DNA of 64,000 bases from Actinacidiphila yanglinensis (GTDB taxonomy: Bacteria > Actinomycetota > Actinomycetes > Streptomycetales > Streptomycetaceae): assembly GCF_900107965.1 (NCBI RefSeq), contig NZ_FNVU01000023.1, forward strand, positions 1 through 64,000, given 5' to 3'. The notes beneath the pieces were generated by a model. It ran no database searches. It saw only the letters and a program-made list of their open reading frames with translations, and was not told the DNA's origin. The translations under genes and the position numbers were made by a program. Position 1 is the stretch's first letter; each line of letters starts with the position of its first letter. Below are positions 3,127 through 21,364 of the stretch, one piece after another.

Positions 3127-3321
3127 AAGGCATATGACATTGCGTCATTGGGGGGACCGTTGCTGCATCTGTCCCACAGCTCCACACCTTCAAGTGAGCG
3201 GTACTTGCTTGCTGCGTGCGGCGGCACTACGAGATGCCCCGAAGGCGGCGCAAGCGGGATGGCATCGCCCGGCGCCTGGCAGGCGTCGTGATCACAAGCC
3301 TCCTTGTGCACATTCCACGGA

Positions 3322-4947: not shown

Positions 4948-5586
4948 GTGTTAACCAACATCTATATCGATGGCTTCAACCTCTACTACGGGCGGCTGAA
5001 GGGGCAGAAGGGTTCCAAGTGGCTCGATCCGGTGGAGCTGTGTCGCAATCTGCTTCCGGCTGGGACTCGGATCCAGCGGGTCCGCTACTTCACGGCTCGG
5101 ATCACTCCGCGACCTGATGATCCCGACGGCCCGGCTCGCCAGGACGCCTACCTCAGGGCGTTGGAGACGCTGCCGGAGGTGTCGATTCACTATGGCAGGT
5201 TCTCGCAGACCAAGACCCGTATGAGGCTGGCCAGCCCGCCCGTTGGTGGCCCCAACACGGTGGAGGTGATCAAGACTGAGGAGAAGGGCACCGACGTCCA
5301 TATAGGGGCGCACATGCTCCTGGACGCCTTCCGCAAGGATTGCGACATGGCCGTGCTGATCAGCAACGACAGCGATCTGTGCGAGCCTCTGAGGATGGTC
5401 AAGAGCGAACTCGGGTTGACTATCGGCATCCTCAACCCGTTTGCCCAGCCTAGCCACTGGCTGAAGAAGCTCCAGCCAGCGTTCATCAAGCCGATCCGGC
5501 AGGGCGTCGTCCGGGCTTCCCAGCTCCCGGCCTCGGTGCCGCTGGGAGACGGCAAGGTCGTGACCCAGCCGCAGGAGTGGGTCTGA
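4948..5586 (+). CDS. NYN-domain protein (predicted ribonuclease), TTA at codon 2
   Basis: 212 residues with the NYN/LabA-type PIN-like nuclease signature: D8 in YIDGFNLYYG with N11, D116 in EKGTDVHIGAHML, and D141/D143 in LISNDSDLCEPL. These acidic residues form the metal site in the fold. NYN proteins are thought to cut RNA; the substrate here is unknown. The length is normal for a single-domain member, with a short tail after residue 185. The start is GTG 4948 with no ribosome site in front, so the message may be leaderless. Codon 2 is TTA, rare in Streptomyces and read only by the bldA leucine tRNA, which suggests expression late in growth or during development. It stands alone and ends in a terminator. 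Confidence 0.85.
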   Translation: MLTNIYIDGFNLYYGRLKGQKGSKWLDPVELCRNLLPAGTRIQRVRYFTARITPRPDDPDGPARQDAYLRALETLPEVSIHYGRFSQTKTRMRLASPPVGGPNTVEVIKTEEKGTDVHIGAHMLLDAFRKDCDMAVLISNDSDLCEPLRMVKSELGLTIGILNPFAQPSHWLKKLQPAFIKPIRQGVVRASQLPASVPLGDGKVVTQPQEWV

Positions 5587-5614
5587 CCAGCCAATGCCGG
5601 CCCGACAAAAGCAA

Positions 5615-5636
5615 AGGCCCGCCGTAGGGCGGGCCT
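5615..5636 (+). terminator. Rho-independent-type hairpin after the NYN gene
   Basis: A perfect 9-bp G+C stem (AGGCCCGCC with GGCGGGCCT) and a 4-base loop lie 28 bases after the NYN stop codon. There is no U-tract, as is usual in Streptomyces. Confidence 0.7.
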
Positions 5637-5689
5637 CGCGCCTGCTCGCCGCAACGAGCAGGGGGTTCGTGAAACAATCTAACAGAACC

Positions 5690-5800
5690 CCACGGACGAT
5701 CGCTTCATTTCGACCAAAAATTTAGATTCAAAGGATTAATAAACAGATTTCATAATATCATTGGAGCAAAGAGGAAAAATTCCTTTGAATCAAAGGTATC
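5690..5800. repeat. AT-rich patch with an 11-bp inverted repeat
   Basis: Roughly 110 bases of A+T-rich DNA in an otherwise G+C-rich region. It contains GATTCAAAGGA at 5725-5735 and its inverse TCCTTTGAATC at 5781-5791, separated by 45 bases. The function is unknown; an insertion-element end, a strong promoter region or an origin-like melting patch are all possible. Confidence 0.45.
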
Positions 5801-6447
5801 GTCGACTGCTGAAGTCTGCATGAGCCGCTGCTGCAGCCATCCTGCCTTCCCGCCACCGGCCACCGGCCACCTGGCAGGGCCCGGCCAGCGGTCGGCTGGT
5901 CCACCCACCTGCTGCCAGATGCCGTGCGATCCCCGGGCCGGCCGCTGACGGAAGGGCGCCACACGGACCTAGGGCTGGAGAGCAGCTCACCACCCGCGGT
6001 CACGGGTGGTGAGCGTCCTAGGAACCGGTTCGCCTTCTGTGGGCCTTCTCCGCTCGCGTCGTCTGCGCCGTGCTCCGTCCCTCGCTGCAGCTGCCCCGCA
6101 ACCGCCTCCAGCCCCGCCGCCGTCACACCCCACAGCTTCTGCGACGGCTCGCCCCGCCGATCCGGCGCCTCGAACTAGCAGCACGTTGCGGATCGCCTTG
6201 TCCGACAGGTGCGGACGGACCAGCCCAATGATCTACGGCGTGTTCGCGGTCTTCGCCTCCCCGCGAAGATCTACTGGAGGCCTTCCACCGTCGTCTGCGC
6301 CGTCGACAGCCCGACGCAACCAACGGCGGCAAGCGGCCCCGCCAGGGCCGCTGGAGGTCAGACCCACGCCGGCCTTCTCGCCCCTGCCGCCCGTCCACGC
6401 CACACCGTCCCTTCCCTCAGGTACGGGGGTTGCGCCGTATTCGTCAG
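5801..6447. other. No intact gene; possible winged-helix remnant on the minus strand
   Basis: Two minus-strand frames read together across about 6060-6240 give RPHLSDKAIRNVLL followed, after a frame change near 6177, by QKLWGVTAAGLEAV. This resembles the helix-wing part of a DNA-binding protein in decay. The rest shows only overlapping shadow frames. Support is weak. Confidence 0.25.
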
Positions 6448-6744
6448 TCAGCTTTCGGCGCTGGCGAGGCGAGAGGCGACGAGCCGGTTCGTCAGCTCCA
6501 CCGTGGCCAGGTACCACCAGAAGATCCAGTCCAAGAACACTTCGTCGTACTCGCCGCGCTGGCCTGCCTTGCGGTGACGTAGGTCGTAGCGGTTGGCGAT
6601 CTCGAACAGTGCACCTTCGTCGGGCTTGCTGATCTTGTCTTTGAGCAGGGCGCGGCGCTCCTCGAGGATGCCCGCAAGCGTCACGATGGCCGATCGCTTG
6701 CTCTCCACTGTCGTGTCGCGTCCGCGGAACAGGGCGATGGCGTG
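6448..6744 (-). pseudogene. C-terminal part of a hypothetical protein, 5' end lost at an inverted repeat
   Basis: A coherent minus-strand stretch of about 99 residues (SKRSAIVTLAGILEERRALL; EGALFEIANRYDLRHR; FLDWIFWWYLATVEL) ends normally at 6448. It resembles the C-terminal half of a hypothetical protein I recall from many streptomycetes, usually with AxALFxGRDTTVESKRSA before it. Upstream the frame runs straight into the 27-bp inverted repeat at 6746-6827, and the protein before that point is unrelated low-quality sequence. So the gene was probably interrupted or truncated there. Function unknown. Confidence 0.5.
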
Positions 6745-6745
6745 A

Positions 6746-6827
6746 CTGGGCTTGATCCGCTTCGACGGACATCCTCCCGGGGCAGAGCCCCTGATCTCGA
6801 ATGTCCGTCGAAGCGGATCAAGCCCAG
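6746..6827. repeat. 27-bp perfect inverted repeat with nested hairpin
   Basis: Arms at 6746-6772 and 6801-6827 are exact inverse copies over 27 bases; the core reads GGCTTGATCCGCTTCGACGG. The 28-base centre holds its own small stem (GGGGC-AGA-GCCCC). It lies exactly where the minus-strand gene loses its 5' part. It may be a folded-back duplication or a small non-autonomous element; a terminator is less likely given the length. Confidence 0.8.
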
Positions 6828-7309
6828 AAGCATCCCTGGCGCGCATCCCTGAGGTCGATGGACTTGCTCCCGTCGTGCACCCTGGTCCCTGGCCGGGAGG
6901 ACAGCTTGGGTGTCCAGACCGATGGTTCCTGGGGCCGGTCTCCAAGGCTGACGGGCGCCCCCACCCGAGAAGCCTCGGGTAGGGCTCGCTCCGGCAGTGC
7001 TTCCTGAAGTCTTAATGCTGCAGCCAGTGCTGGGTCGCATGAAGAGCAACGCTGACAATGGCGTTGACGGCTCCAGCGGCAGTTGCCGACAGCATTGACG
7101 TCATGAGATCGCGCCTGACGCGTGAGCCGGGGTGGCAGTTGGGGTTGCGAGTGCGGCGGGGCCGGTGTGGGTTGGTCATGGCGTGATGGTGAAGTCCGGC
7201 TCTACGGTGGGGCAGCATCCGGTCGGGGAAGGCACCCAAAGTTGCAGGTGGGATCGCTACGATGAGCTTTCCGGAGCGGATCGCCACCGGAAGAAACCGG
7301 AGGTTTTCG
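6828..7309. other. Intergenic leader of the STAND NTPase gene
   Basis: I see no convincing coding sequence here. The ribosome site of the downstream gene, GGAGG at 7299-7303, lies at its right edge. Confidence 0.4.
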
Positions 7310-10300
7310 GTGCCGGACAGCGACCGGCCGACAGGGGCACGGGAACAGTTCGCGCAGCGACTGCAGGAGCTGATCACCGCTTCTGGCCTGTCCAAAGCCG
7401 CTTTCGCGCGTCAGGCCGCCGCTGTCGAGCAGAAGTTGGCCGATCCGCCTCGCAACCGGCCCAGATTCTCGCCGCAGCGGATCAGCGACTGGGTATTGGG
7501 AAAGAACATCCCCCATGAGCGGGCGTTGACCGCGATGGTGATCGCAGTTCAGCATGCCCGCGCCAGGAGCGGCCTGTCGGCGATCACGGTGCAGCCCGGG
7601 CTGTTGTCGCTGGACCGGTGGGCACAGTGGCGGCGGCAGGCCCAGGACGAGGCTTCCTCTTCATCGGGTGATCGGTCAGGTGCAGTGCAGCTGGCCGCTC
7701 ATGACGCGTCCGCCCAGTCGCTGACTCCACGGCCGGGGATGGGCCAGGGGCGTGCCGTGGGACCGCTGGCCATGGCGCCGGTCCTCCCGGATCGCTTCGT
7801 TCCACGCCCGAGGCAGGCGGAGTGTGTGCTGGCTGCGCTGGAGCATCGGCAGAGCCCGGTAGTGCTGCATGGGCCTGGCGGATTCGGAAAATCGACGCTG
7901 GCGAGTTGGGTCTGTGCCACGCCACAGATTCGTGAGCAGTTCCCGGATGGGGTGCTGTGGGCGCAGATGGGTCCGCAGGTGGAACCGGACCGCGTGGCGC
8001 GGTCTTTGTCCGAGATGGCGGCGCAGGTCAGCGGTGCAGCGGCGCCGCAGGTGTATGTCGATGTGGCCGCTGCTGCGCAGGCTCTGCGGTCGGCGCTGAC
8101 GGGATTGCAGGCCCTGCTGGTCGTTGACGACGTGTGGAGTGCCACTGATCTGCGCCCCTTCCAGGGGCTTGGGCCGGGGGTGCAGTTGCTGGTCACGACG
8201 CGTCGTGCCGGGCTGGTGGAGACAGTCGAGGTCGAGGTCGGCGAGATGTCGGTGGACGAGGCTGTGGCCGTCCTGGGCGTCGACGACGCTGACGAGGCTG
8301 TGCTGCAGCCGCTGCTGGCGCGTGCGGGGTACTGGCCGCTGGCATTGGTCATGCTCTCGGGAGTGTTGCGGAGTCTGGTGGGCCGGCACGGCAAGGACGT
8401 GGTCGAGGCGGTGCGTGAACTGGCATCTGAGCTGGACGGCGCCAGTGTCTTGGCATTGGATGACCTGTCCGATACGGACGTGGCCAGGGGCATTGCCCGC
8501 ACGCTTGAGGTGAGTCTGGACGATCTTGTCGCGGTCGGTGGACCGCGATGTCTGGAACGGTTCGTGTCCCTGGCGGCGTTCCCGGCTGGTCAGGCGGTGC
8601 CGTTCGCGCTGCTGCACCAGCTGTGGGGCATCAGTGATGTGCGGGCGCGTTCCGAGGGCGACCGCTTCGTCGGCCGGTCACTGTGTACGGTCGACGGGCA
8701 GGGGCTGCGTCTGCACGGCATCATCCGTCGGGCCCTGCGCGTACTGAATGCCGATCAGTTGGCGGGGTTCAGTCAGCGGCTTTTGGTCGAGTTTCGGCCT
8801 GCCGAGGGATGGCACCGGTTGGCCGGCGCTCGCATGCTTCTCGCCGACACGCTGGCCTTCCATCTGCTGCAGGCAGGTCTGCTGCAGGAGTTGGGCTTAA
8901 CCGTGCGGGATGTCCGCTTCCTCGCGTTGCGGTTGGCCCGGTCCGGACCGACCGCCGTGGATGCCGACCTTGCCCGCTACCGTGCAGCAGTTCCCGACGA
9001 CGCCGGCGCCCGTGTTCTGGCCAGCCTGATGCGCCGTGAGGCGCTGGCGTTCACCGGCCCGCTGTCCTGCCACGACCTGGCCGTCACCCTGGAGAACCGT
9101 GCCCTGGGACTCGACCCGCTGCCGCAATGGCTGCTGGGGCTCGGGCAGGCCCGCTCAGGCGGCGGGGTGCGGTACCTGCACCCGCCGCTCGACCGCGACC
9201 ATCCGGCGCTCAAAAGCTGTGTTCCGGCCGTAGGTGTCGACGAATTCCACGATGTCGACTGGCACCCGAGCGGTCGGCTCCTGGCCGTCGCGGGCTCCCA
9301 TCCCACCGTGGAGATCCTCGACACCGAGGGAACGCGGAAATGGACGATGGAAGGCCCTGACACGGTCAACCGCGTGCGGTGGAGCCCGGACGGAACCCGA
9401 CTGGCACTCGTCGGTGTCAGTGACCGCTTCGACATGCCTCACGACGTTGAGACGACTCCGGAGGAAGCTCTCCGCAACCATCACAACGACGTGACCGTCT
9501 ATGACCTTCGGACCGGTAGGGAGATCCTGGCCGTGCCTGTCCTGGCCGGCCTCTCCCTCTTGCGGCAATCGCCGCCGGCCCTGTGCTGGTCACCGGACTC
9601 CGACATGATCTGCGTCGCCAGTGACACGGGCGTGTCCTTGTACGCGCTGGACGCGGGCAGCGGTCCCCAGCCGCTGACCGGTATCCAGCACCTGGACGAA
9701 GAGGGCGAGGTGTCACTCGACTGGCACCCCGTTCACGGCCTGCTCGCGCACACCCCGAAGCGCACCAGCGACAGGCACCACGCCGGGCTGCTGCGCCTAT
9801 GGGCGGATCCGGCCGACCAGAGCCAGGAACCACGGCAGTGGCACTCCCGGGCACTGTGGGGCCGCGGCGGATCTTTGATGTGGCGACCGAGCGGTCGCAC
9901 TGCGGTACTGGACCTGGAGCGTGCCGTGGCCATCGTGGACCCGTTCGCTCAGCGCGTCCTGTGGCGCACCGAGCACACGCGAGAAGCCACTGCCTACTGG
10001 TCGGCCGACGGCCAACAGCTCGCCGTACGCGAGTCGGCGCCTCGGCTTCATCGGGGTCCGAGTCGGATCACCGTGTGGCGAGTGCCGTCCGATGAGGCTC
10101 TGTCATCCGGGGACTTGCCGATGCCCGAGTCCTTTGTCCCGCTGCGGTCCGACCATAACGACCGGGACTGCGTGTCCTGGCATTCCGATTCCGCGGCGCT
10201 CGTGGCCACCAGTGACCGGCGCCTGCTGCAGATGTGGGATACCGGGCGTCTCAGCCCTGCCGCCGCGGCACGGCCCGGACAGGCCGCACTCGTGCACGTA

Positions 10301-11056
10301 CGGTGGAGCTCCGATGGCCGAAGCCTGGCCGTGGCGGGAGAGCACGGGCACTGGATGACCGTGCATATGGAAGGCTCCTCCCCCGACGCCTCCCGCGTTG
10401 CTGCCCACTCCTCCTTCCCGTTTCCCGGACGCGATCCTGCGACCCGGCATCGATGGCCGCAGGCAGTCGGTGTGCCTGCCGAGCGCTACCCCCCGGAAGG
10501 TTCTCCGGTCATCGTGAACTTCGGGCCGGAGGAACGACAGCATCTGATCGGGCACTGGTTTGAGCCGCTGCGTGTCTTCACCTCCCAAGGCCGGCTCGTC
10601 ACCGAACTTGCCTCGCCTCACGGTGCGCAACGCTGGGGCGATGCCTGCTTCACTCCGCGCGGTGACCGTGTCGTTGCGGCCGCTGCAGGCGCTGACTGGG
10701 ACGACAGCGTATTCAGTGTGTGGAACCTCAACGGGGCGCGGCCGCGGGAGGCTACCGCCCGACAGACATACCGCGTGTCCCGCCCGGCAGCCCACCACTC
10801 CGTAATCGTGCGCGTCGCTGCCAGCGACACCCACGCCGTGATGCTCGCTTTCCCCGACTACATCGGAGTGTTCCGACTGAGCGACATGCACACGCTGTGC
10901 TGGAGCAAGACCAACTCCCGGATCTACGACGCCGCGTTCGACCCGAGCGGTAGGGTCCTCACGGTCGTCGGCGACGCAGGCCTGCACTTCTTCGAAGTCC
11001 ACGACCCTACGGATCCCACGGTCAGAGAATCCGACGCCACCACGACCGGTTCCTGA
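7310..11056 (+). CDS. STAND NTPase: HTH, NB-ARC and WD40-type repeats
   Basis: About 1,248 residues. I choose GTG 7310 because GGAGG ends six bases before it; the in-frame ATG at 7262 has no ribosome site. Residues 10-85 form an XRE-like DNA-binding region (LQELITASGLSKAAFARQAA; RISDWVLGKN). An NB-ARC NTPase follows: Walker A GPGGFGKST, Walker B LLVVDDVW and the TTRR sensor. A helical ARC/winged-helix part comes next, then from about residue 650 to the end repeated WD40-like blades (for example VDWHPSGRLLAVAGSHP, VRWSPDGTRLAL, VRWSSDGRSLAVAGEHG). STAND proteins are signal-triggered switches; with an HTH rather than an enzyme at the N-terminus, this could be a ligand-sensing regulator or a defence sensor. 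No partner gene is adjacent. Confidence 0.85.
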   Translation: MPDSDRPTGAREQFAQRLQELITASGLSKAAFARQAAAVEQKLADPPRNRPRFSPQRISDWVLGKNIPHERALTAMVIAVQHARARSGLSAITVQPGLLSLDRWAQWRRQAQDEASSSSGDRSGAVQLAAHDASAQSLTPRPGMGQGRAVGPLAMAPVLPDRFVPRPRQAECVLAALEHRQSPVVLHGPGGFGKSTLASWVCATPQIREQFPDGVLWAQMGPQVEPDRVARSLSEMAAQVSGAAAPQVYVDVAAAAQALRSALTGLQALLVVDDVWSATDLRPFQGLGPGVQLLVTTRRAGLVETVEVEVGEMSVDEAVAVLGVDDADEAVLQPLLARAGYWPLALVMLSGVLRSLVGRHGKDVVEAVRELASELDGASVLALDDLSDTDVARGIARTLEVSLDDLVAVGGPRCLERFVSLAAFPAGQAVPFALLHQLWGISDVRARSEGDRFVGRSLCTVDGQGLRLHGIIRRALRVLNADQLAGFSQRLLVEFRPAEGWHRLAGARMLLADTLAFHLLQAGLLQELGLTVRDVRFLALRLARSGPTAVDADLARYRAAVPDDAGARVLASLMRREALAFTGPLSCHDLAVTLENRALGLDPLPQWLLGLGQARSGGGVRYLHPPLDRDHPALKSCVPAVGVDEFHDVDWHPSGRLLAVAGSHPTVEILDTEGTRKWTMEGPDTVNRVRWSPDGTRLALVGVSDRFDMPHDVETTPEEALRNHHNDVTVYDLRTGREILAVPVLAGLSLLRQSPPALCWSPDSDMICVASDTGVSLYALDAGSGPQPLTGIQHLDEEGEVSLDWHPVHGLLAHTPKRTSDRHHAGLLRLWADPADQSQEPRQWHSRALWGRGGSLMWRPSGRTAVLDLERAVAIVDPFAQRVLWRTEHTREATAYWSADGQQLAVRESAPRLHRGPSRITVWRVPSDEALSSGDLPMPESFVPLRSDHNDRDCVSWHSDSAALVATSDRRLLQMWDTGRLSPAAAARPGQAALVHVRWSSDGRSLAVAGEHGHWMTVHMEGSSPDASRVAAHSSFPFPGRDPATRHRWPQAVGVPAERYPPEGSPVIVNFGPEERQHLIGHWFEPLRVFTSQGRLVTELASPHGAQRWGDACFTPRGDRVVAAAAGADWDDSVFSVWNLNGARPREATARQTYRVSRPAAHHSVIVRVAASDTHAVMLAFPDYIGVFRLSDMHTLCWSKTNSRIYDAAFDPSGRVLTVVGDAGLHFFEVHDPTDPTVRESDATTTGS

Positions 11057-11228
11057 TCCGTGAGAAGTCCGTCCAGTTGGCCGCCTTCGCTCACCTGTCA
11101 GGCGTCCGCCGTAATCGTGGTTTGTCCGGTGTTCGGTGCCGGAGTGCCCCGAGCGGATCGAAGCGATCCGGTCCATGAATCGTGTGGTGGCGGGACCGTC
11201 CACAGACCGCAGACGGTCCTGGGGGTTG

Positions 11229-11849
11229 TCAGGCACCGAGACCGATGTGACTGACGTAGGTATAGGCGCCCCAGTCAGAGTCGAGGTCGGCGATGATGTC
11301 GTCCCAGATCTGCTCAAGTTCGTCGGTGTCACCGGCGATGAGGGCGTCGACGGCGGCGTCCCAGACGTAGCGGACCTGGATGCGGCGTACGCGCAGGTTG
11401 CGTCGGCGGGCGTGTTCGTCGACGACGTCCTGGTTGATGGGGTGGATTTCCACTCGGGTTCCCTGGCCGCCCCGGTTCAGGTGTTGTTTGAGGCCGCCGG
11501 GGTTGGCCAGGACGTTGGTGGCGCGCAGGTTCCAGTAGGCGGTGTCGATCGCCTCGATGTTGCCGGGGCGGGGGCGTTGGCGGCCGGTGGTCCAGGCGCG
11601 GAGGGTGGCGCGGGACGCGGTGATGCCGGCGTCGGCCATGGCCTGGGCGCCGCCTTGGGTGGTGGTGAGGTACTTCATGCGGGCTTTGAGGCCGCGGCGG
11701 GTGGTGGCCGGTGACTTGATGCCACCGTCGATGATCATGCGTTCGAGGACGTCTTCCAGGGCGCGGCCGAGCGCGGCCCGGCCGTGGATGTTTCCGGGGT
11801 CGCGGCCGGCGCCGTAGGTGCCGAAGTTCCTCCATCCGTCGGTCGACAT
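11229..11849 (-). CDS. tpg: Tpg-like telomere terminal protein
   Basis: 206 residues. The N-terminal half has the Tpg-type sequence RMKYLTTTQGGAQAMADAGI followed by a helix-turn-helix and RQRPRPGN, close to my recollection of Streptomyces Tpg (MKYL, GGTxA, RxPR). The C-terminal half has the helical VWDAAVDALIAGDTDELEQI pattern. Tpg is the protein covalently bound to the 5' ends of Streptomyces telomeres; it primes filling of the terminal gap. The order agrees: the gene starts one base after the stop of the tap-like gene, the standard tap-tpg arrangement, so translation is probably coupled. It is divergent from the classical chromosomal Tpg and somewhat longer. The identification rests on pattern memory and context, not on a search. 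Confidence 0.65.
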   Translation of the reverse strand: MSTDGWRNFGTYGAGRDPGNIHGRAALGRALEDVLERMIIDGGIKSPATTRRGLKARMKYLTTTQGGAQAMADAGITASRATLRAWTTGRQRPRPGNIEAIDTAYWNLRATNVLANPGGLKQHLNRGGQGTRVEIHPINQDVVDEHARRRNLRVRRIQVRYVWDAAVDALIAGDTDELEQIWDDIIADLDSDWGAYTYVSHIGLGA

Positions 11850-11850
11850 C

Positions 11851-14800
11851 TCAGGCGGTGGTCTTCCTGGGAAGGGTGTAGCGATCCTTGAGTTTCATGT
11901 GCTGGGTCAGGCGGCCCTCTGGGAACACGCCGTCTTCCTGGCCGGGGGTTTTGCGCCATGGGCCGCCGGTGAGGTGGAGTTCGTCGGTGCCGCGGACACG
12001 GACGATGGTCAGGCCGGCTTCGTGGGCTTTGTTGGCCTTGTACCAGAGGTTCGCGAAGGCCTGGGAGCGGATGATGTGCATCCACTCCGGTCGGCGGATC
12101 TCCAGGTTGGCGTTGGATTCGCCCATGGTCGAGGTGAACTTCGCGTACATGGCTTTGACGTACTCGACGGTCACGGCGCCGTCGGCGTATCCGGCGGCCT
12201 CGCGGGCGAGGGCGGCTTCTCGCGCTTCGGTCAGGACACGGCGGAACTTCTCCAGCAGCCCCTCGCTGGCACCCGAGGTCCAACTTTCGGCGATTGCGGG
12301 TGGGTCGCACAGACCGTAGCGGGCGCAGCGGAGTAGGAGGCGGATGGTGGAGTCGGTGAGGAGGACGGGGCCGGTTTCGTGGCGGTTGCCGATGGGGTCG
12401 GGGAGGTGGGGGTGGTGCCAGGTGGGGCGCTGGGTGAGGAGGTAGATACCGGAGCGTTTGGGGTCGAAGCCGCCGTCGGGGTTGTGTTGGAGGGTGCCGA
12501 TGGGCAGGTAGGTCTTGAACGCTGACAGGTAGGCGGCGTTGGTGTCGAGGGCGTCGACGGTCACGGGGTCGAGGGTGCCGTTGTTGAGGGAGTCGATGAG
12601 GGTGGTGTTGGTCCAGTTGTGGCGGCCTTCCCAGACCTGGTCGGCGCCTTCTTTGGTTTTCTTCCGCAGGAATTCGAGGGTCTCCGGGTAGACGGTGTGC
12701 TCGTAGTTCGAGCCGACGCGGGTCTCCTCGAACAGTGCCATGGCGTGGGGGACGGCTTTCTTCGCCAGGGCTTCGGTCGCGGTTTCGACGTCGCCGGCAT
12801 GGTCGGCGAGGGCTTGGTCGACGGCACGGGTGATCTGGCCGGTGAAGTAGGAGTAGTCGCGGCCGGCGTATCCGCCGGTGGTGCTGCCTGGTGGCTGGGG
12901 GGTGCGTTGCCGGGCGGGCTCAGGGGCGGCAGCGGCCGCCGGCGGGGTCGGGGTGGGGGGAGGTTGCTGTGCGCTGGCGGCGGGTGGGGTGGGGTTGCCG
13001 GGGGTGGCGGTGGGTGGCCACGCCCCTGGGGTGCCCGCGGGTGCGGGTGGTGCCGGATGGGCCGCGGCGGGCTGGGTGGGAGTGGGGCGGGTAGAGGGGG
13101 CGTGCGGTGGCGCCTCGGTGAGGCGGGCATGGGTGAGGTCGGCGTGCAGGGTGAGGACCGCTTGGGTACCCAAGTCCCGTTCGGTGATGGTCAGGTGGGT
13201 CTGGTGCGGATTGCCGGTGTCAGGAGTGAGGGTGAGGGTGGTGTCCAGGCTCAGGGTGGCAACCGTGTCGGCATGGTCGGTGTCGACGGCGGCCAGGACC
13301 GGAATGTGGAGGGTACGGGCGAGGTGGGCCAGCGCTTGGGCGGCGTCGGTGAGGCGAGGCCCGGACAGGGGCAAGCGGGGGTCGTCGGCGGCCTGGAGTC
13401 GGTCGACGACAACCAGAGCCAGATCCAGCAGACCCGTGGCGCTCTCGGCGATCGCAGCGGGTGTCAGGTCGCTGCCGTCGTCGATGAACAGCGGGGCCGC
13501 AGGCAGTTCGCGGTACAGGGCGCTGACTTCTGTCTGTTCGGTCGTAGTGAGCTGTCCGGTCCGCAAGCGGCGGTAGTCGACTGATAGGTGCGCGGCGACG
13601 ATCCGGGCGGCGACGTCGGCGCGGCTGAGACCGGAGGCTGCGTACAGAACGGTGCGGCGGTGGTCCAGAGCCGTCGTGCGGGCGGCGCTGCTGGCGATGA
13701 GACTGCCGCCGGCGCCGGGAGCAGCAGCGACGAGGTAGAAACGGCCGGGCTGAAGACCGCCGAGGGCTTGGTCGAGGCTGGGGATACCGGTCGGCAGGCC
13801 GTGCGGCGGTGCGGCAGTGTCGGTGGTGGTGTTGCCGGCAGGGGAGATGAGGACGGTGTCCAGAGCCTGATCCAAAGGAGCCAAACGGCGCGGCACGCCC
13901 GGCTCGCCGGAATCGGGGACGGCTGCGGGAGCAGAGGCGACGGCGGGCTGCGGGGCGAGCTCGGTCGGCAAGTCACCGGAGGGGTGAGCGGACGACCGGG
14001 CCGCAGCGTCCGAGGGACTGGGTGCAGGGGCTTTCGCGGGATGTGGGGCGCTGCCGAGGGGCACTGGCAGGTCTGGTTGAGGCTGAAGGCCATTGGGAGG
14101 ACGGGGGGTCGGGTGGTCGTTGGACGGCTCTTCAGCAGGAGAGGGCCGGGGGCCGGGTGTGGTAGCCGGGTGCGGGGTGCTTTCTGTGACGGCGGGGATC
14201 AGCACGGCCACGGGGGTGTTGTGGCGGCGCAGGAGTTGGGGGCGGCCCTGGGAAGCGTGTCGGATGAGGTCGCCGAGTTTCTTGCGGGCATCAGCGATCC
14301 CGTGCACCTCTGCGCCGGTCAGGTCCCATCCCAGTGCTGCGGCGTCCGTTGGGGCCATCAGGAGAGCGTGGTCGGTATCGCGCGCCAGGGGGGTGGGCGT
14401 GCCGTCGGCGGCCGCCCGGATGAACTGGGGCAAGGCAGCGCGGGCCTCGTGCAGGGTTGCCGGTGGCGGACCGGGGAGCAGCTTGCGGGCGAGGGTGGCA
14501 GATGGAGGGGTTGCCGAGGGCGCGCTTGCCACGGCGGTACCCGTTTCGCTTTCTTGAGCCGTGGTGGCGGTCGCGCTGGTCCGGACGGTGTCGCTGGAGT
14601 CGGGGGCGGTCTTCGAGGTGTCTCCTGGCCTCGCCGGTGCAGCGGCGGGCTGTGAGAGGAACTGGGCTGGGCCCGTGGAAGGGGCCGGCTTCGCGACCGG
14701 GGAAGGGCCGCGTTGCGCCGGGGCGGTCTCGTGTGTCAGGCCGTCGTGCTCCGTGGCGGGTTCGGTGAGGATGGAGGTCGCGTCGGTCACCGGGGCCGGT

Positions 14801-15372
14801 TCGGGGGCTGGCTTTGATGGCTGGGCCGGGGCCGGGCCTGCGGAGGGGGCCTGGCCGGGGTGCAGGCATTGGGTCACGATCCGTTCCAGCAGTTGGTACG
14901 TCTGCTCAGCGCGGGTGCTGCGGGGACCGCCGAACGCGGAGCGGGGCGCGGTGAGCAGGACGTGCCAGTGCGAGCCGCTCGTCCGCTGCTGGGCTGCGGC
15001 CTGCAGAGCAAGTCGCAGTCGGCGGCCGGATTTCTCTGCCAGCCCTCCGCGCGGTGGTGTCACCAGTTGGTGTGCCGGCATCGACAGGGCCTGCCGCAGC
15101 GAGAGCGGGATACTGGTCCAGACGGGGTCAGTCGGGCTGGGCAGCTCGATCCCCTTGGCCGCGCCCGGTGCGGTCTGACGTGGTGCAGGATCTGTCCTGG
15201 TGGGAGCCTCGGCTGCGCTCTGGTTGAACGTGGTTCCGGAGCGGGGGGAACGCGAACGCGATGACACCAGCGGCTCCACAAGATCAACGCAGGGGTGGGT
15301 ACGGGCCCCCGAGGAGGGGCCCTCCTGGTGAAACAGGCGAAACGGCGCCTTGAGCAGCCGCGCGGGAACCAC
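11851..15372 (-). CDS. tap: Tap-like telomere-associated protein fused to Phd-like and DnaB-like domains
   Basis: 1,173 residues. Residues 838-1173 match the conserved C-terminal region of Streptomyces Tap: ADQVWEGRHNW, DTNAAYLSAFKTYLPIG, RYGLCDPPAIAESWTSGA, EYVKAMYAKFTSTMGES, MHIIRSQAFANLWYKA. Tap brings Tpg to telomere DNA. Upstream are two tandem Phd/YefM-like modules (about 305-340 and 355-394: IADARKKLGDLIRHASQGRP, RRHNTPVAVLIPA), then a DnaB_C/RecA-like domain (about 527-755: GIPSLDQALGGLQPGRFYLV) with Walker B ALVVVDRLQA. Its P-loop reads AAPGAGGSLIA, so the catalytic Lys is Gly. Pro/Ala-rich linkers join the parts. Classical Tap is about 740 residues. GTG 15372 lacks a ribosome site; ATG 15081 (MPAHQLVTPP) is an alternative. 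Confidence 0.75.
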   Translation of the reverse strand: MVPARLLKAPFRLFHQEGPSSGARTHPCVDLVEPLVSSRSRSPRSGTTFNQSAAEAPTRTDPAPRQTAPGAAKGIELPSPTDPVWTSIPLSLRQALSMPAHQLVTPPRGGLAEKSGRRLRLALQAAAQQRTSGSHWHVLLTAPRSAFGGPRSTRAEQTYQLLERIVTQCLHPGQAPSAGPAPAQPSKPAPEPAPVTDATSILTEPATEHDGLTHETAPAQRGPSPVAKPAPSTGPAQFLSQPAAAPARPGDTSKTAPDSSDTVRTSATATTAQESETGTAVASAPSATPPSATLARKLLPGPPPATLHEARAALPQFIRAAADGTPTPLARDTDHALLMAPTDAAALGWDLTGAEVHGIADARKKLGDLIRHASQGRPQLLRRHNTPVAVLIPAVTESTPHPATTPGPRPSPAEEPSNDHPTPRPPNGLQPQPDLPVPLGSAPHPAKAPAPSPSDAAARSSAHPSGDLPTELAPQPAVASAPAAVPDSGEPGVPRRLAPLDQALDTVLISPAGNTTTDTAAPPHGLPTGIPSLDQALGGLQPGRFYLVAAAPGAGGSLIASSAARTTALDHRRTVLYAASGLSRADVAARIVAAHLSVDYRRLRTGQLTTTEQTEVSALYRELPAAPLFIDDGSDLTPAAIAESATGLLDLALVVVDRLQAADDPRLPLSGPRLTDAAQALAHLARTLHIPVLAAVDTDHADTVATLSLDTTLTLTPDTGNPHQTHLTITERDLGTQAVLTLHADLTHARLTEAPPHAPSTRPTPTQPAAAHPAPPAPAGTPGAWPPTATPGNPTPPAASAQQPPPTPTPPAAAAAPEPARQRTPQPPGSTTGGYAGRDYSYFTGQITRAVDQALADHAGDVETATEALAKKAVPHAMALFEETRVGSNYEHTVYPETLEFLRKKTKEGADQVWEGRHNWTNTTLIDSLNNGTLDPVTVDALDTNAAYLSAFKTYLPIGTLQHNPDGGFDPKRSGIYLLTQRPTWHHPHLPDPIGNRHETGPVLLTDSTIRLLLRCARYGLCDPPAIAESWTSGASEGLLEKFRRVLTEAREAALAREAAGYADGAVTVEYVKAMYAKFTSTMGESNANLEIRRPEWMHIIRSQAFANLWYKANKAHEAGLTIVRVRGTDELHLTGGPWRKTPGQEDGVFPEGRLTQHMKLKDRYTLPRKTTA

Positions 15373-15379
15373 CGACCAC

Positions 15380-15450
15380 TCAAAGTGTAACGCCTGTTGT
15401 GCAGACTAACCCACTCCGGTACACATTTGGAGTGCCTGTTGTAACGCGCC
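15380..15450 (-). promoter_or_regulatory. Repeat-rich leader of the tap-like gene
   Basis: TGTAACGC occurs at 15386-15393 and 15440-15447, GCCTGTTGT at 15392-15400 and 15434-15442, and CACTCC/GGAGTG (15412-15417, 15429-15434) form a small dyad between them. The 10-mer TGTTGTAACG at 15437-15446 is also at 31-40. Candidate operator for autoregulation of the tap-tpg operon. Confidence 0.4.
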
Positions 15451-15526
15451 TGGGTGAAGCGGCTGGGCGCCGGAGACGTCTTACGCCCAGCGCACTCCCG
15501 GCACGGCAGCAGTCTCTCCGAACGTG

Positions 15527-16489
15527 TCATGTCGTTGCGCGGGCCAGGTGACGGGACAAGGCCGCACGAAGGGTCGGGAGGGGCGCTTGAGCGCCCATCA
15601 TCTGGAGCAGTTCCTCGACGTCCCAGGTGACCAGTCGGGCTGTGCGGGTGAGGTAGAGGCCTACACGGTTGAGCCCGTACTGGTCCGAGTAGTCCAGGAG
15701 GGCGTAGCCGATGAGTTGTCTGAGGGCGGGTGCGGCCAACCGGGTGGCGTCCTTGGTGGCTTTGATGTCGATCAGAAGGCCGTCGGCGATGAGGTCAGCG
15801 TCTGCGCCGTCGATGTCGGTGGAGCCGGCGAACGTCGGGCCGGACCGGCAGGTGTCGGGCGTGGTGGCGGCGCGGAGGGGACCCAGGACGGTGTGTGCGT
15901 TGCGGATCTGGGCGGTCAGGTCGCGGACGGCGTAGTCGGGGACGCGTTGCAGGAGGGAGGGGAGGGTGGTGGCGGCGCGCAGCGTTCCCAGGGGGCTGGC
16001 CGGTGCGAGGTATCCGCTGCGGTAGATCTCTTCGAACCAGGCCATCGCCATGCACAGGCGGCCCAGGTGTTCTTCGGCCTCGAGCGGCAGGAGGAGTTCC
16101 CGATCGCGATCGTCGGGGGCCTGTCGGGCGAGGACCTCGTCCAAGGCGGCGTGGAGGTCGTTTCCGGTGGTGGTGAAGGCGTGTGCCGCGGCCACGTCGC
16201 CTTCGGCCCAGGCGCATGCCGCGGCTGCCTGTACGCCGAGGGTGACGGCCGTGTCCCAGGTGCGGGCAGTGGTGAAGGCGTATCGCAGGCGGTGGTCGAC
16301 GGCTGCTCCGAGGGTTCCCCACAGGGGCCTGACGCCGGCGGGGGCTTGGGGTAACAGCAGCGGCCCGGCTTCCACGTCGGCGAGTGCGTTGCGGAAGGAG
16401 TCGGTGGCGGGGCGGATCTGCGGCAGGTGTTCGCGCAGGAACGTGGACAGGGGGCTTCCCTTGGCCTGGAGTTGGGACGTCAGCGACAC
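15527..16489 (-). CDS. Predicted PD-(D/E)XK nuclease-like protein
   Basis: About 320 residues if translated from GTG 16489 (VSLTSQLQAKGSPLSTF), which has AAGGA ten bases upstream; GTG 16507 is an alternative, and the frame above that is low-complexity and probably untranslated. Near residue 235 it reads GSTDIDGADADLIADGLLIDIKAT: an acidic residue, a hydrophobic strand and D-x-K, the pattern of PD-(D/E)XK nuclease folds. The rest is helical (LEAEEHLGRLCMAMAWFEEI; LRQLIGYALLDYSDQYGL). I recall similar Streptomyces proteins annotated only as hypothetical. It is divergent from the pPIWI-RE operon across about 350 bases, so it could be a regulated accessory of that system or independent. Confidence 0.65.
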   Translation of the reverse strand: MSLTSQLQAKGSPLSTFLREHLPQIRPATDSFRNALADVEAGPLLLPQAPAGVRPLWGTLGAAVDHRLRYAFTTARTWDTAVTLGVQAAAACAWAEGDVAAAHAFTTTGNDLHAALDEVLARQAPDDRDRELLLPLEAEEHLGRLCMAMAWFEEIYRSGYLAPASPLGTLRAATTLPSLLQRVPDYAVRDLTAQIRNAHTVLGPLRAATTPDTCRSGPTFAGSTDIDGADADLIADGLLIDIKATKDATRLAAPALRQLIGYALLDYSDQYGLNRVGLYLTRTARLVTWDVEELLQMMGAQAPLPTLRAALSRHLARATT

Positions 16490-16789
16490 GGCGGGGCTGT
16501 CCTTCACGAGGTCATGGTGATCGGCAAGGTCTGGCTTCAGGGTGGTTGGGCAGCGTGTGCGCCGTGGCGTGTTGTGAGGGTTTTCGGCCCGCGCTCGGGA
16601 GCATCCAGGGGGCGCACAGGCGTGGCACTGGCTGTCGGCCGTCCTCCGAGGGGGTGAATCGCTTGGTTCCGGCTGCGTGCCGTGCGTGGTGGGACATCGC
16701 AGTTCAGCGGCGGTTTGGGCCCGGCTCCAGCGCGGACACGCGCAGGGTGGTGCGTGCTGTGCGGTCCGCATGGGTCGGCGATCATCGCT

Positions 16790-16841
16790 CCTGTCACTCA
16801 GTGATCTCTGTCAAGGACACTCAGTAAAGTGAGATGGAGTC
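16790..16841 (+). promoter_or_regulatory. Operator-like repeats before the pPIWI-RE operon
   Basis: CACTCAGT occurs at 16795-16802 and again at 16818-16825; the first lies in a perfect 11-base dyad TCACTCAGTGA (16794-16804), and the second is followed by AAAGTGAG. GATGGAG then sits immediately before the GTG start at 16842. Likely promoter/operator of the three-gene operon. Confidence 0.45.
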
Positions 16842-18005
16842 GTGGTGGTCGTTGATGCTGCCGTGAGCCGGCGCAGGACCATGGTGGTCAGCGCTGCGGT
16901 CCGGGCCGGGTACGCGTGGTCGGTGCGCCGTTCGGAGTCCCGGGCCTGGCGGGAAATCATGAGCATGACCGGGGTGGTCAATGCGCTGCGTGGTGCCGCG
17001 GTTCCGGCGTTGAGTCCGGTGGAGTTCGTGGACCGTTTGTCGCGGCCCTTGAAGCAGCTGGCGCCGGATGTGTTCGGCGATGACCGGCTGGGCTGGATCA
17101 CGGTTTTGGAGTGGGACGAGCTCCGCGACGACGTGCACTCCGACGGGTGCTCGGTGATCGTGGACCTGCTGGCGGAGGGCGACCGCGGCCGCGGATGGCT
17201 GCCGTCGTGGACGTGGCTGCAGCAGGAGGTCGTGCAGAACGAGGCGTTCACGCAGATCAAGACCGGTGCCACGGAGGAGACGTACGTGGCCCGGCGCCGG
17301 TTCGTGATCGACAACCCCGTCGGCGGTGCGGGCTCGTTGGCGGACCTGTGCAGCCAGGCGGGGATCGCTCCACCGGTTCCCTATGTGCCGATCCCGCCGG
17401 ACCGCCTGTACGACGGGCACTACTGGTGGCCTTGCCCGACGTGCCGGTGGCCGATGCGTGTCACCGGAGCTTCGGTGCGCTGCAGCTACCTACCCCACAA
17501 TGCCGCCTACTTCGTCCGTGACAGCAGCGGCCCGACGCCGCGGCTGCGGCGCCGCGACGAGACCGTGCCCCGCCAGCCGGGCGCCCGCCGGTGGGTGGCG
17601 GCCGGTGAGGAGCGCACCCTGTGCGTGGAGCTCCCTGTGTGGCGCTACATGGTCGTTCCGGGTGTCGAAGAACTGGCGTTGTTCACACGGTGGTTTGGCG
17701 TCTCGGATCTGCTGGATGTCGCCTTGTGGCCCGGTCAGGACGCCTACGACCTGCGGTTCGAGATCGCGTCGACCAACTGGACCATGGCACTGGACCTGAA
17801 GGACGTCGCCAGTGCCGGTGCGCTGGCTGACAAAGTCAGGTCCAAGCCCCTGGCGGCCCGCACGATCGTGCTGCCCGACCACCGCGGCACCGCGCACCAG
17901 GCGGAGTTGTCGGATCTGCTGCCGGGCTATGAGGTACTGCTGGTCTCGGACGTGCACAAAGCCGTGGGCAAGGCACTGGCCCGGGCGAGGAGGTCGTCGC
18001 GGTGA
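16842..18005 (+). CDS. REase-fold partner of the pPIWI-RE system
   Basis: 387 residues, first gene of the operon. The N-terminal half (RAWREIMSMTGVVNALRG, SPVEFVDRL) fits the helical pPIWI_RE_Y-type region. Residues 198-214 hold a zinc-ribbon-like CPTC...C with only three Cys (C198, C201, C214) plus H219. Residues 299-375 form a restriction-endonuclease-like core: D303 in QDAYDLRFEIAS, then D318 and K320 in MALDLKDV, consistent with PD-(D/E)XK chemistry, followed by an alternating strand/helix pattern (TIVLPDHRGT, YEVLLVSDVHKAV). In the described pPIWI-RE systems this protein is the predicted DNA-cutting subunit. GTG 16842 follows GATGGAG; ATG 16881 is an alternative. It overlaps the helicase gene by four bases (GTGA). 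Confidence 0.75.
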   Translation: MVVVDAAVSRRRTMVVSAAVRAGYAWSVRRSESRAWREIMSMTGVVNALRGAAVPALSPVEFVDRLSRPLKQLAPDVFGDDRLGWITVLEWDELRDDVHSDGCSVIVDLLAEGDRGRGWLPSWTWLQQEVVQNEAFTQIKTGATEETYVARRRFVIDNPVGGAGSLADLCSQAGIAPPVPYVPIPPDRLYDGHYWWPCPTCRWPMRVTGASVRCSYLPHNAAYFVRDSSGPTPRLRRRDETVPRQPGARRWVAAGEERTLCVELPVWRYMVVPGVEELALFTRWFGVSDLLDVALWPGQDAYDLRFEIASTNWTMALDLKDVASAGALADKVRSKPLAARTIVLPDHRGTAHQAELSDLLPGYEVLLVSDVHKAVGKALARARRSSR

Positions 18006-21000
18006 ACTCCGATGACAACGGCCTGTCCCGGCGTGAGGCATTGGTCATTCCCCGCCTCGTCGCCGCGGCGTGTGCCGCGGCGCAAGCCCATTTTCCTCAG
18101 GCGCAGGGCGCCACCGCGTTGTTGACCGCCGCGCAGTTCCTTGTGACGGGCACGTTCGACGTGTGGGAGGGATATGAGCGCCTGCCGGTTGCTGACCAGT
18201 TGCAGTTGAGCCGCCTGCTGCGGCATCGTCCCAACCCCCTGGCCAACGATGCCGGTTTCCGACAGTACGCGCTGGAGCAGTTCTACCTGGGCGAAATTCC
18301 CGGTTTCCGGTTGCGTGCGGACGAGGAGACCATCGACAGCCATCACGGGATGAACCCGCGGGCCTGCTTGACCAAGCTCCTGGACGAGTTGGACACGATC
18401 GTGTCTGAGTTTCGGACTGCGGCGGCAGTGGCCAAGTCCGGGCAGTACACGCACACGCTGCGGCTGCCGATGGCGGGCCGGCAGCCGCAACCCGTGCTGG
18501 CGTTGTATGCCTTCGGGGACGAGCATGCACCGGAGCGGCGGCTGCCCGTCGAGCGGTTGGTCACCGCAGGGGAACTGGCTGCAGCGGACGTGAAGATCCC
18601 CGAATTCCTGGCGTTGAGCCGCAGCCTTGACATCGCAGGGGAAGGTAGGGCGTTCCGCGTCGCCGCGCTGGAGCCGTTCTTCGCCAAGATGACGACCGGG
18701 CAGGGCGCGGCAGTCGGCAAGGTGATGCGGCTGAAGGCCGGGATGACGCAAGTCCTCAGCGCTCCCACGGGGTCGGGGAAAAGTGTGTGGATGCGCGCGG
18801 CGGCGTCCTGGGCGGTCCTGGAGGGCCATACGATCGCCTTGGTGGTGGACACAAACGCCGCAGCGCTCAAACTCGCCCGCGCCATCGAGGAGGATCTGGG
18901 CTCCCTCAGGGACGACGGTCTGCTCGGCGCCAGTGCCGGGACCGCCGAGCAGGTGGTGGTCCCGCTGATGTCGCCGCACAACCTGATGCGGGAGGTGGAG
19001 CGCGCCGCGCACAGTTCCGGGGACCCGGACTTCGTCGACTGGGTCTTCGGCCGTATCGGGTACTCCTGCCAGTTGCCGGCCCTGGCTTCGGTGGACGAAG
19101 CAGTGGACACCTGGATCCCCGGGAGTGAGCCGTGCACCAACCTCACCGCGGTGCGGGACAAGCCGCTGGAGGAGTACCGCAGCATGCCGGCGGCGAAGGT
19201 CTGCCCATTCAAGGCAGGCTGCGGCAAGTACCGGCTGGCGCGGGAGGCATGCGCCGCACAGGTCATCATCACCACCCACGCCAACCTGTACGGCGGGCGG
19301 ATGCACATCCCGTTGGAGATGGACGACGGCTCGGTCGAGGAGAAGGTCAGTGTCGAGGAACTCGTCCTGCGCCGCTGCCAGATCGTACTGATCGATGAGC
19401 TTGACGCGTTCCAGTCCACCGCCATGGACCGCTCGGGTCGGGGACTGACTCTGGCATGGGGAGACCGCGGCCATGACCGGCCGTTGCTCGACCTGGATCG
19501 GCAGATCATCTCCGCGTTCGTCCAGTTGCCGGGAGCTTTGGAGGAGCGCAGCCGCTCCAACCTGCTGGAGTGCCGGCGGTTGGCCGAGACCTACACCATG
19601 CATTTGGCCCGCGGTGACCTGGCGTTGAGTGAGCGCCTGCCGGAGGATCCCGGCCGGGGACGCGGTGGTAAGGACCGGCAGGCCAGTCGGCGCTGGGTTC
19701 TGCCCGAGCGGTGGGACGGGATGATCGCCCGTGAGCTGGCGGCGTTTCTCGCCGATGATCCCGCCCAGGTGGGATCCAGTCCGCAGCGCGGTAGCGGGCC
19801 GGCGGAGGCGGTTCTTCTGGAGGCGGTCTACGACCCGGCGGTGGCCTCGTACTGCCTGCCGGAGCACCTGCGCGAGTTTGCCCGTGTCGTGCGCTCGATC
19901 ACCGCCGCCAGCGCTTCGGGCGGAGTGCTGGACCACACCCGCAACGTGCTGTTCGAGATGCTCACCCCCTGGATTCCGGCGCCCCGGATGCGTACAGCCG
20001 TCATCGAACGCCTGGTGCGCAGAATGTTCCTGGTACCGCTGCGCAGGATGCTCTACAGCTTCGTCCATGATGCTCCACAGCTGAAGCTGGCCGGCGCCAC
20101 CGCAGCTGAGGAGATCGCTCAGGCACTGCGCGGATTCGAGACGTGGCGGGCCATCCCGCACGGGCCCATGGGACGGCTGGTCTTCGCCTTCACCGAGGAC
20201 TACACCCCCCAGGCCGTCCGCGACACCCGGTTGTGCGCCGCGGCGTTCGGCGGTGACCCCCACCGCTACGTCACCTCGCTGGGCCAGATCACCGCCCTGG
20301 CACAAGCCGGACACCGGCGCATCGTGGTCGGGCTGTCGGCAACGGCCTACATCCCAGGGGCTCACCGCCACCACGTCCACGCCAGGCCGGCCTACATCGT
20401 TGCCGACGAGGACTCCTGTGTGGAGATCGACGCTCGGCCCATCCCCGGCCTGGACCAGGAGTGGATGCGAATCTCCGGCCTGACGGGCAAAAAACGCCGG
20501 GAGGCCACCGTGGAGTTGGGCACCCGCCTGTGGAGCGAGCTGTCACGGGACCTGGAGACGTTGTCCGAAGGGGACACAGCGGGTGTCCAGGACTCGATCC
20601 TGCTGGCCACCACCTCCTACGACAGCGTCCACGACCTGGCTGAAGGGCTGCGCCAGGCCGGAGCCCCACCAGGGCTGGTCACTGTGGCGGTACGCCCCGA
20701 TCCCGACGGCGTGCGCTCCGGCACACAGCAGGAGGATCTGCCCTGGATCGAGTTGGCCGGTGACCGGCTCGAGGACTTCGGGTCGCTGGTCCGCGCGCGG
20801 ATCCTGATCGCTCCGATCAAGCGGGCCGAGCGGAGCTTGAACATCCTCGCCCCCGGATCCCGCCGCTCCCGCATCGGCGCAATCTGGCTGGCTGTTCGCC
20901 CGATGTCCATCGTCGACGACCCGGACGAGTTGCTCGCCCATGTCGGCGCACGGGTGCTGGACGACTGCCTGCCCCATGCACTGCCCTGGACGGTCCTTGC

Positions 21001-21364
21001 GCAGGCCAGGAAGGTCGCCGGCCGCTACTTCGACGAGCTGGTGGGCAGCCGCCGCTACTTCAGCGCGCTTCCCCGCCGCGCGAAGAAGGCCATCGCCGCG
21101 GAGCTGATCGCGTCGATCATCCAACTCGTCGGACGCGCCCGGCGCGGGGGAACCCCCGGCCGTATCCGGCTGGTCGACTACGCCTTCCTCGACCCGCGGG
21201 GCAACTCCGACCTGCCCTCGCTCATCCACGACCTGCGCAAGGACTGGGCACGGACGGGAGAACTGGACTTGCTGCAGGCCACCAACGGCGCCTCACTGCG
21301 CGCATTCCTCACCTTCGCCGAGACCCGATCCCCCGCCCGCGACACCTTGGACCACGCATGCTGA
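18002..21364 (+). CDS. DinG/XPD-like helicase of the pPIWI-RE system
   Basis: 1,120 residues. Residues 251-261 are Walker A (VLSAPTGSGKS); 462-469 are Walker B (VLIDELDA); a motif-III-like VGLSATAYIPG lies near 778, and motif VI QLVGRARRGG near 1040. Between Walker A and B sit Cys356, Cys378, Cys401 and Cys407 (SCQL, EPCTN, KVCPFKAGC), arranged like the Fe-S cluster insertion of XPD/DinG helicases, and then ITTHANLY, typical of that clade. The ~230-residue N-terminal extension is helical (pPIWI_RE_Z-like). In the three-gene system the helicase is expected to unwind target DNA or R-loops for the other subunits. GTG 18002 overlaps the upstream stop; the 3' end overlaps the pPIWI-RE gene by seven bases. 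Confidence 0.85.
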   Translation: MNSDDNGLSRREALVIPRLVAAACAAAQAHFPQAQGATALLTAAQFLVTGTFDVWEGYERLPVADQLQLSRLLRHRPNPLANDAGFRQYALEQFYLGEIPGFRLRADEETIDSHHGMNPRACLTKLLDELDTIVSEFRTAAAVAKSGQYTHTLRLPMAGRQPQPVLALYAFGDEHAPERRLPVERLVTAGELAAADVKIPEFLALSRSLDIAGEGRAFRVAALEPFFAKMTTGQGAAVGKVMRLKAGMTQVLSAPTGSGKSVWMRAAASWAVLEGHTIALVVDTNAAALKLARAIEEDLGSLRDDGLLGASAGTAEQVVVPLMSPHNLMREVERAAHSSGDPDFVDWVFGRIGYSCQLPALASVDEAVDTWIPGSEPCTNLTAVRDKPLEEYRSMPAAKVCPFKAGCGKYRLAREACAAQVIITTHANLYGGRMHIPLEMDDGSVEEKVSVEELVLRRCQIVLIDELDAFQSTAMDRSGRGLTLAWGDRGHDRPLLDLDRQIISAFVQLPGALEERSRSNLLECRRLAETYTMHLARGDLALSERLPEDPGRGRGGKDRQASRRWVLPERWDGMIARELAAFLADDPAQVGSSPQRGSGPAEAVLLEAVYDPAVASYCLPEHLREFARVVRSITAASASGGVLDHTRNVLFEMLTPWIPAPRMRTAVIERLVRRMFLVPLRRMLYSFVHDAPQLKLAGATAAEEIAQALRGFETWRAIPHGPMGRLVFAFTEDYTPQAVRDTRLCAAAFGGDPHRYVTSLGQITALAQAGHRRIVVGLSATAYIPGAHRHHVHARPAYIVADEDSCVEIDARPIPGLDQEWMRISGLTGKKRREATVELGTRLWSELSRDLETLSEGDTAGVQDSILLATTSYDSVHDLAEGLRQAGAPPGLVTVAVRPDPDGVRSGTQQEDLPWIELAGDRLEDFGSLVRARILIAPIKRAERSLNILAPGSRRSRIGAIWLAVRPMSIVDDPDELLAHVGARVLDDCLPHALPWTVLAQARKVAGRYFDELVGSRRYFSALPRRAKKAIAAELIASIIQLVGRARRGGTPGRIRLVDYAFLDPRGNSDLPSLIHDLRKDWARTGELDLLQATNGASLRAFLTFAETRSPARDTLDHAC

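Follow-up and report, generated by a model that had tools for sequence, protein, structure and literature searches.

Architecture of the fused gene

The window analysed here comprises positions 1 to 64,000 of contig C14 (159,688 bp) in the 9.59-Mb genome G000 of Actinacidiphila yanglinensis, and our subject is a gene in it encoding a Tap-like telomere protein in which tandem Phd/YefM-like modules, resembling DNA-binding domains, and a DnaB-like domain are fused in front of a C-terminal core. It is adjoined by a tpg-like terminal-protein gene, whose ATG lies one base after the tap-like stop codon (Table 1). The open reading frame (ORF) at 11851-15372 on the minus strand has 1173 codons counted from its first GTG, and residues are numbered accordingly. 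Since the relatives begin with MSSSRS, the GTG at 15267, which is codon 36 in this numbering, appears from the sequence comparison to be a likelier translation start than 15372.

Table 1 Features of the fused tap-like gene, its partner gene and the replicon end in the window.
Feature	Position	Strand	Basis
Fused Tap-like gene	11851..15267	-	Likely start GTG 15267, inferred from relatives beginning MSSSRS and from the start-codon list
Conserved N-terminal region, DPVWTSIPLSLRQ..., residues ~80-170	14863..15135	-	Translations; common to L001-L003
Tandem Phd/YefM-like modules, residues ~300-347 and 351-394	14191..14475	-	Pfam/TIGR01552 (second), AlphaFold (both)
DnaB_C-like RecA domain, residues 524-757	13102..13803	-	Pfam, structure match, alignment with intact DnaB
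Degenerate Walker A, APGAGGS, residues 551-557, Gly556 in the lysine position	13702..13722	-	Alignments with DnaB and fused relatives
C-terminal core, residues 844-1173, predicted protein-primed family-B DNA polymerase fold	11854..12843	-	AlphaFold, Foldseek, VIA, archetypal Tap homology
Asp943 codon, putative motif A catalytic aspartate (LDTNAAY)	12544..12546	-	93/93 cores; hhalign on phi29 DVNSLYP, score not significant
Asp1130 codon, putative motif C catalytic aspartate (GTDELH)	11983..11985	-	93/93 cores; phi29 pairing by eye/position
tpg-like terminal-protein gene, 206 amino acids	11229..11849	-	tblastn to genes adjoining linear-plasmid Tap-like genes
Replicon end, hairpins CCGTCAC-TAC-GTGACGG and GTCGC-TCC-GCGAC (within bases 1-54)	1..90		Similar plasmid ends
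Terminal inverted repeat	1..48607		Identical in G000 contigs C14 and C39; first mismatch 48608

An initial annotation, made from the letters of the sequence, had described Phd/YefM-like modules, a DnaB_C-type RecA domain at residues 520-760 and a Tap-like C-terminal third, and all three parts were recovered. It had overlooked the loss of the Walker A lysine and the predicted DNA polymerase fold of the C-terminal third. The second Phd module scored 29.7 bits against TIGR01552, over the cut-off of 20.8, and its match to Pfam Phd/YefM (residues 356-394, E 3.5e-6, 27.1 bits) stayed under the cut-off of 29.8. The first module gave no Pfam match in the window protein and is recognised as a structural copy, repeating the secondary structure of the second in the AlphaFold model, where both have a predicted local distance difference test (pLDDT) value of about 95; in the relative L007 two Phd stretches are both over the cut-off. 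The DnaB-like domain was matched by Pfam and by structure (see below), and the C-terminal third is close to that of short helix-turn-helix (HTH) Taps and remotely related to archetypal Tap. The linkers between the domains have pLDDT below 50, the Pfam scan gave no family match for the region around residues 80-170, and a profile scan of the whole window protein gave no HTH match at E ≤ 1.

For comparison we assembled 93 Tap-type ORFs, consisting of the window copy, 11 ORFs taken from records of plasmids, 80 relatives on genome contigs (the best of 237) and one ORF from another genome; the set includes near-duplicates, and some of its ORFs are truncated where a contig ends. The DnaB-like domain is present in 49 of the 93. 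Among 36 members picked for having this domain, some of them truncated, Pfam DnaB_C was found in all and Phd in 18. Cores of this type occur in 7 of the 35 genomes searched in the genus, the source genome counted, and related cores are carried by plasmids of Rhodococcus, Brachybacterium and Xylanimonas. The complete chromosome of S. cyaneochromogenes encodes a fused protein near each end (loci L012 and L021), so that the fused protein is not restricted to plasmids. In L151-L153, a class that has diverged further, the Phd-DnaB-like-core order is again accompanied by a tpg-like gene (annotated or translated), and the aspartates of motif A and motif C are retained. The relative L001 (5965-10770) is 1601 amino acids long with three AAA_22 stretches ahead of the Phd match, and the proteins of L002 and L003 are longer still.

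A predicted polymerase fold in the C-terminal core

In sequence searches the core is approximately 50-54% identical to the C-terminal portion of "HTH" proteins encoded on many linear plasmids. It was modelled by AlphaFold from 38 sequences with a pLDDT of 92.6 and a predicted template modelling score of 0.91. When the model was compared with the PDB using Foldseek, all nine matches with E ≤ 0.001 were phi29 DNA polymerase (best E 1.4e-7), followed by other family-B polymerases. With VIA, five phi29 entries gave Z scores between 16.7 and 17.9, the best covering 282 residues at 4.9 Å, and the next family-B polymerase scored 10.3 and the following ones at most 10.3. Among viral models the best matches were mostly named DNA polymerases, including those of phage GA-1, BadAztec1 and the Streptomyces tectivirus WheeHeim, which we take to be protein-primed. 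The core aligns with the phi29 polymerase from approximately residue 123-171 onward and apparently has no exonuclease domain; a 3'-5' exonuclease domain is usual, not universal, in protein-primed family-B polymerases.

Residues D943, N945, Y1071, D1130, K1160 and K1162 are invariant in all 93 cores, and K1073 is found in 91 of them. D943 is the candidate catalytic aspartate of motif A and D1130 that of motif C. Both hhalign runs against a set of phi29-like polymerases put motif A in the expected register, and D1130 falls between strands 279-285 and 288-292 of the model, where its pairing with the phi29 motif C was made by eye and position.

As archetypal Tap reference we used GE265_RS27715 of pSCL2 (735 amino acids), picked by its position and HTH annotation; the tap-tpg pair of pSCL2 is mentioned in PMC8743545. 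The putative counterparts of the two aspartates in this protein are those of LVGLDVNMAF and SDCVVY. The core gave no meaningful blastp match to this protein and 3.5 bits in a hidden Markov model comparison; hhalign aligned it with the C-terminal part of archetypal Tap over 198 columns with a probability of 98.9 and an E value of 1.5e-17. Because of this alignment the published activity of Tap and Tpg bears on the core: archetypal Tap has been shown by others to bind both the telomere and Tpg, and according to PMC4513846 purified Tap and Tpg suffice for deoxynucleotidylation and the synthesis of 13 nucleotides (nt). Tap has previously been reported with "no DNA polymerase motif" found. The initial annotation had thought of Tap as a telomere binder; the relation to Tap stands, and on the strength of the predicted fold we replace the binder-only reading with that of a polymerase.

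Several observations weigh against a polymerase. Comparison of the core with 14 phi29-like polymerases by hhalign was not significant (E 0.15 and 0.12), which is a weak test with profiles of such low diversity (effective number of sequences 2.2-2.8) and bears on sequence membership, not on the fold; the DnaB-like alignment, run for comparison against the same set, gave E 0.81. The Pfam and PHROG matches of core parts stayed at chance level (best E value 0.067 for Pfam, 0.32 for PHROGs), and a sequence search of the PDB with the core profile gave no match at E ≤ 10. The identity between the core and phi29 polymerase is just 11-15%, the Foldseek template modelling scores are about 0.5, and the first Asp of the phi29 DTD motif is a Gly in the core. 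AlphaFold was trained on solved structures, presumably including phi29 polymerase. The profile alignment with archetypal Tap spans motif A and beyond and stops before motif C, and an archetypal Tap is also encoded in the source genome (G000:C33), so the fused protein need not serve every end. Since the sequence profiles alone are not significant, the polymerase we propose is a prediction based on fold, motif order and Tap biochemistry.

A DnaB-like domain with degenerate ATPase motifs

The match to DnaB_C (PF03796) covers residues 525-695 with an E value of 2.2e-23, far over the cut-off, and the model of the domain matches DnaB with a Foldseek E value of 5.5e-17 and a Z score of 26.7 over 222 residues at 2.2 Å. 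Names of DnaB motifs are used below for the aligned positions that we take to be the catalytic Glu and the arginine finger. None of the 49 fused proteins has the Walker A lysine, none has a Glu at the catalytic position, and all 49 have kept the Walker B aspartate. The block around the arginine finger is missing in the eight fused sequences that were aligned with intact DnaB, and the N-terminal domain of DnaB (PF00772), present in the L008 DnaB, was not found in the window protein at E ≤ 1. Stretches resembling VVVDRLQ and ERDLG are kept in most of the 49.

Judged by these sequence features the domain is a conserved pseudo-ATPase, and with both the Walker A lysine and the catalytic Glu lost, it is unlikely to work as a helicase or to power loading with ATP. 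As the residues for ATP hydrolysis are gone, the dead domain is likely to be structural or to bind DNA or a partner, and not to be a motor. A stand-alone DnaB-like protein of 388 amino acids without the Walker A lysine was also seen at L150 (3869-5035) on pFRL3, a plasmid bearing SCP1-type telomeres according to PMC8743542.

Exchangeable fronts and the replicon end

The front of the protein switches several times on the core tree. On a tree built from 59 cores, eight changes are needed to account for the DnaB-like label, at least five of them forced by well-supported branches, and six, with at least four forced, for the label "HTH or other". The tree was made with a quick method and has some long branches, and "HTH or other" stands for no DnaB-like match, with part of the fronts checked. 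With the truncated rows removed there were 6 changes. Shuffling gave a mean of 19.7. Of 27 non-fused proteins, as many as 20 matched HTH models (HTH_31 in 20, HTH_3 in 17 and BetR in 6). Between the HTH and the core, the HTH-type Taps carry a zinc-ribbon-like Cys/His cluster that is nearly invariant in 27 sequences (C199, C202, H216 and C221 in the numbering of L056).

The fused gene lies inside a terminal inverted repeat of 48.6 kb: contig C39 (198,746 bp) opens with the same 48,607 bases as C14, with no mismatch. Together C14 and C39 amount to 358 kb, and the plasmids in the five best records containing a relative measure 293-388 kb. Because the sum falls within this size range, the replicon is likely a linear plasmid. 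An exact search for the first hairpin, allowing loops of 3 or 4, located it in 11 of 112 loci, namely in the second copy of the window (L107) and in ten others, each of the ten having it 0-30 nt from the end of its contig. The stems of the second hairpin vary on both sides, being GTCGC/GCGAC in the window, GTCAC/GTGGC with one G-T pair in L002 and GCCAC/GTGGC in L003. Its TCC loops read GGA on the opposite strand, and a GGA-type loop is known from non-archetypal telomeres (PMC7205883 and PMC8743542).

The DnaB-like domain is present in nine of the ten other loci bearing the first hairpin. The tenth, L027, carries an HTH front and lacks the DnaB-like domain, which shows that this type of telomere does not require the Phd/DnaB front. 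It weakens the idea that the type of telomere is set by that front.

Proposed function and alternatives

We consider it very probable that the fused protein is a protein-primed, end-patching DNA polymerase with an exchangeable front that holds telomere DNA or a partner; the polymerisation itself, the use of the Tpg-like protein as primer and the binding target of the front are what we infer. Besides the predicted fold, the conserved aspartates and the biochemistry of Tap, this reading draws on the adjoining tpg-like gene, the hairpin telomere at the end of the repeat that holds the gene, the repeated change of front among the cores, and the retention of the DnaB fold after loss of the Walker A lysine. 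Replication leaves a 3' overhang folding into hairpins (PMC4513846). On this hairpin-rich overhang of the replicon end, which would be the template, the front would keep the protein in place; within it, the dead RecA domain may either hold on to single-stranded DNA or attach to a partner. The core would bind the Tpg-like protein and, by analogy to Tap, attach the first nucleotides to this primer. With nearly the same confidence we propose that the Taps of Streptomyces (archetypal, short HTH and Phd-pseudoDnaB fusions) and their plasmid-borne relatives in Rhodococcus and further actinobacteria form one unrecognised lineage of phi29-related, protein-primed family-B polymerases that serves chromosome ends, with swappable DNA-holding fronts including a domesticated dead DnaB motor.

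The initial annotation had instead suggested that the protein couples telomere binding to replisome loading, which would make the DnaB-like domain a working helicase or replisome loader at the telomere. The clear DnaB_C homology and fold fit this suggestion, as does the plasmid of L008, where an intact dnaB lies directly upstream of the tap-like and tpg-like genes, and PMC4513846 suggests that removing Tap from the template may require a helicase. We nevertheless find it very unlikely and abandoned an active helicase or loader as a candidate, because the ATPase residues described above are lost throughout the fused proteins, the window protein has no DnaB N-terminal domain, and L008 is the sole HTH-type locus showing an adjacent intact dnaB at the thresholds used. 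A variant of the proposed polymerase function, and not its opposite, is that the dead RecA domain serves as a docking piece for the DnaB hexamer of the host, for primase or for a RecA-like filament, and so recruits the protein to arriving forks or stops the fork at the end. Retention of the DnaB motor fold after loss of the ATPase residues is consistent with such docking, and so is the conservation of the VVVDRLQ-like and ERDLG-like stretches; we regard this as a tentative possibility.

The core could also be a dead polymerase fold that merely positions Tpg on the hairpins and leaves the synthesis to another polymerase (DinB1/2). A genetic requirement for DinB1 or DinB2 is reported in PMC4513846, and one aspartate of motif C is a Gly; however, both main aspartates are present in every core of the set, and the 13 nt are made by archetypal Tap and Tpg with no polymerase added (PMC4513846), so that we think this unlikely. 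Even more doubtful is that the Phd-like modules make the protein an antitoxin-like or self-regulating plasmid maintenance factor. It is true that TIGR01552 is matched over its cut-off and that relatives are publicly annotated as "prevent-host-death family antitoxin", but profile scans found no toxin family in the two same-strand neighbouring genes, and the modules are fused ahead of a telomere protein with a tpg-like gene adjoining.

Neighbouring genes

The tpg-like protein is 35% identical to the Tpg of pSCL2 over 52 amino acids (E 0.001). At L008 (5377-9022, plasmid pRLB1-9.2) the intact dnaB, HTH-tap-like and tpg-like genes are consecutive. On the other side of the fused gene in the window, at 15527-16771 on the minus strand, lies a gene for a protein of 414 amino acids with a PADLOC match to RTasPDDEXK, a DRT entry, at an E value of 2.3e-10. 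The terminal repeat also contains a three-gene pPIWI_RE defence island at 16842-24036 on the plus strand, encoding a restriction endonuclease (REase)/Y protein, a PprDinG-like helicase and PprPIWI. An NB-ARC protein with a WD40 propeller is encoded at 7262-11056 on the plus strand.

Relation to known systems

In 2006 a resemblance between Tap and helicases was described for plasmid pRL2, as cited in PMC8743542, and the pRL2 Tap is probably the same kind of fusion. This resemblance and the public annotation that names the domain "DnaB-like" were already known; the literature searched yielded no mention of the tandem Phd modules, of the general ATPase loss, of the telomere link or, most importantly, of the polymerase fold. 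That search gave no description of Tap as a polymerase of family B or of phi29-like type, and the words Streptomyces, Tap and telomere were not found in the PolB diversity paper PMC7544198. With a phi29-type fold and named putative catalytic residues, the polymerase reading can be tested by two point mutations. If true, it connects the ends of bacterial chromosomes with the protein-primed replication of viruses, gives a better name to proteins annotated as "HTH regulator", "antitoxin" or "DnaB-like helicase", and provides an example of a dead helicase domain recruited into telomere maintenance.

With the DnaB replicative helicase the window protein shares the RecA motor fold, whereas no N-terminal domain was found in it and the Walker A lysine, the catalytic Glu and the arginine-finger block are missing. 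The phi29 DNA polymerase, a protein-primed family-B enzyme, has the fold predicted for the core and likewise has a terminal-protein gene adjoining the polymerase gene, but the window protein differs in its fused front and in having GTD for DTD in motif C. The archetypal Tap of the Streptomyces tap-tpg pair is, like the fused gene, encoded directly upstream of tpg and has a remotely homologous core; unlike the fused protein, it has an N-terminal HTH (by annotation and in PMC4513846) and no DnaB-like match. More closely related are the short HTH-Taps of 495-520 amino acids (L008, L010 and L011), which have the same core with approximately 50-60% identity and a tpg-like gene behind, and in which an HTH and the conserved Cys/His cluster take the place of the Phd-Phd-pseudoDnaB front; these short proteins possibly represent the GtpB type of S. 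griseus.

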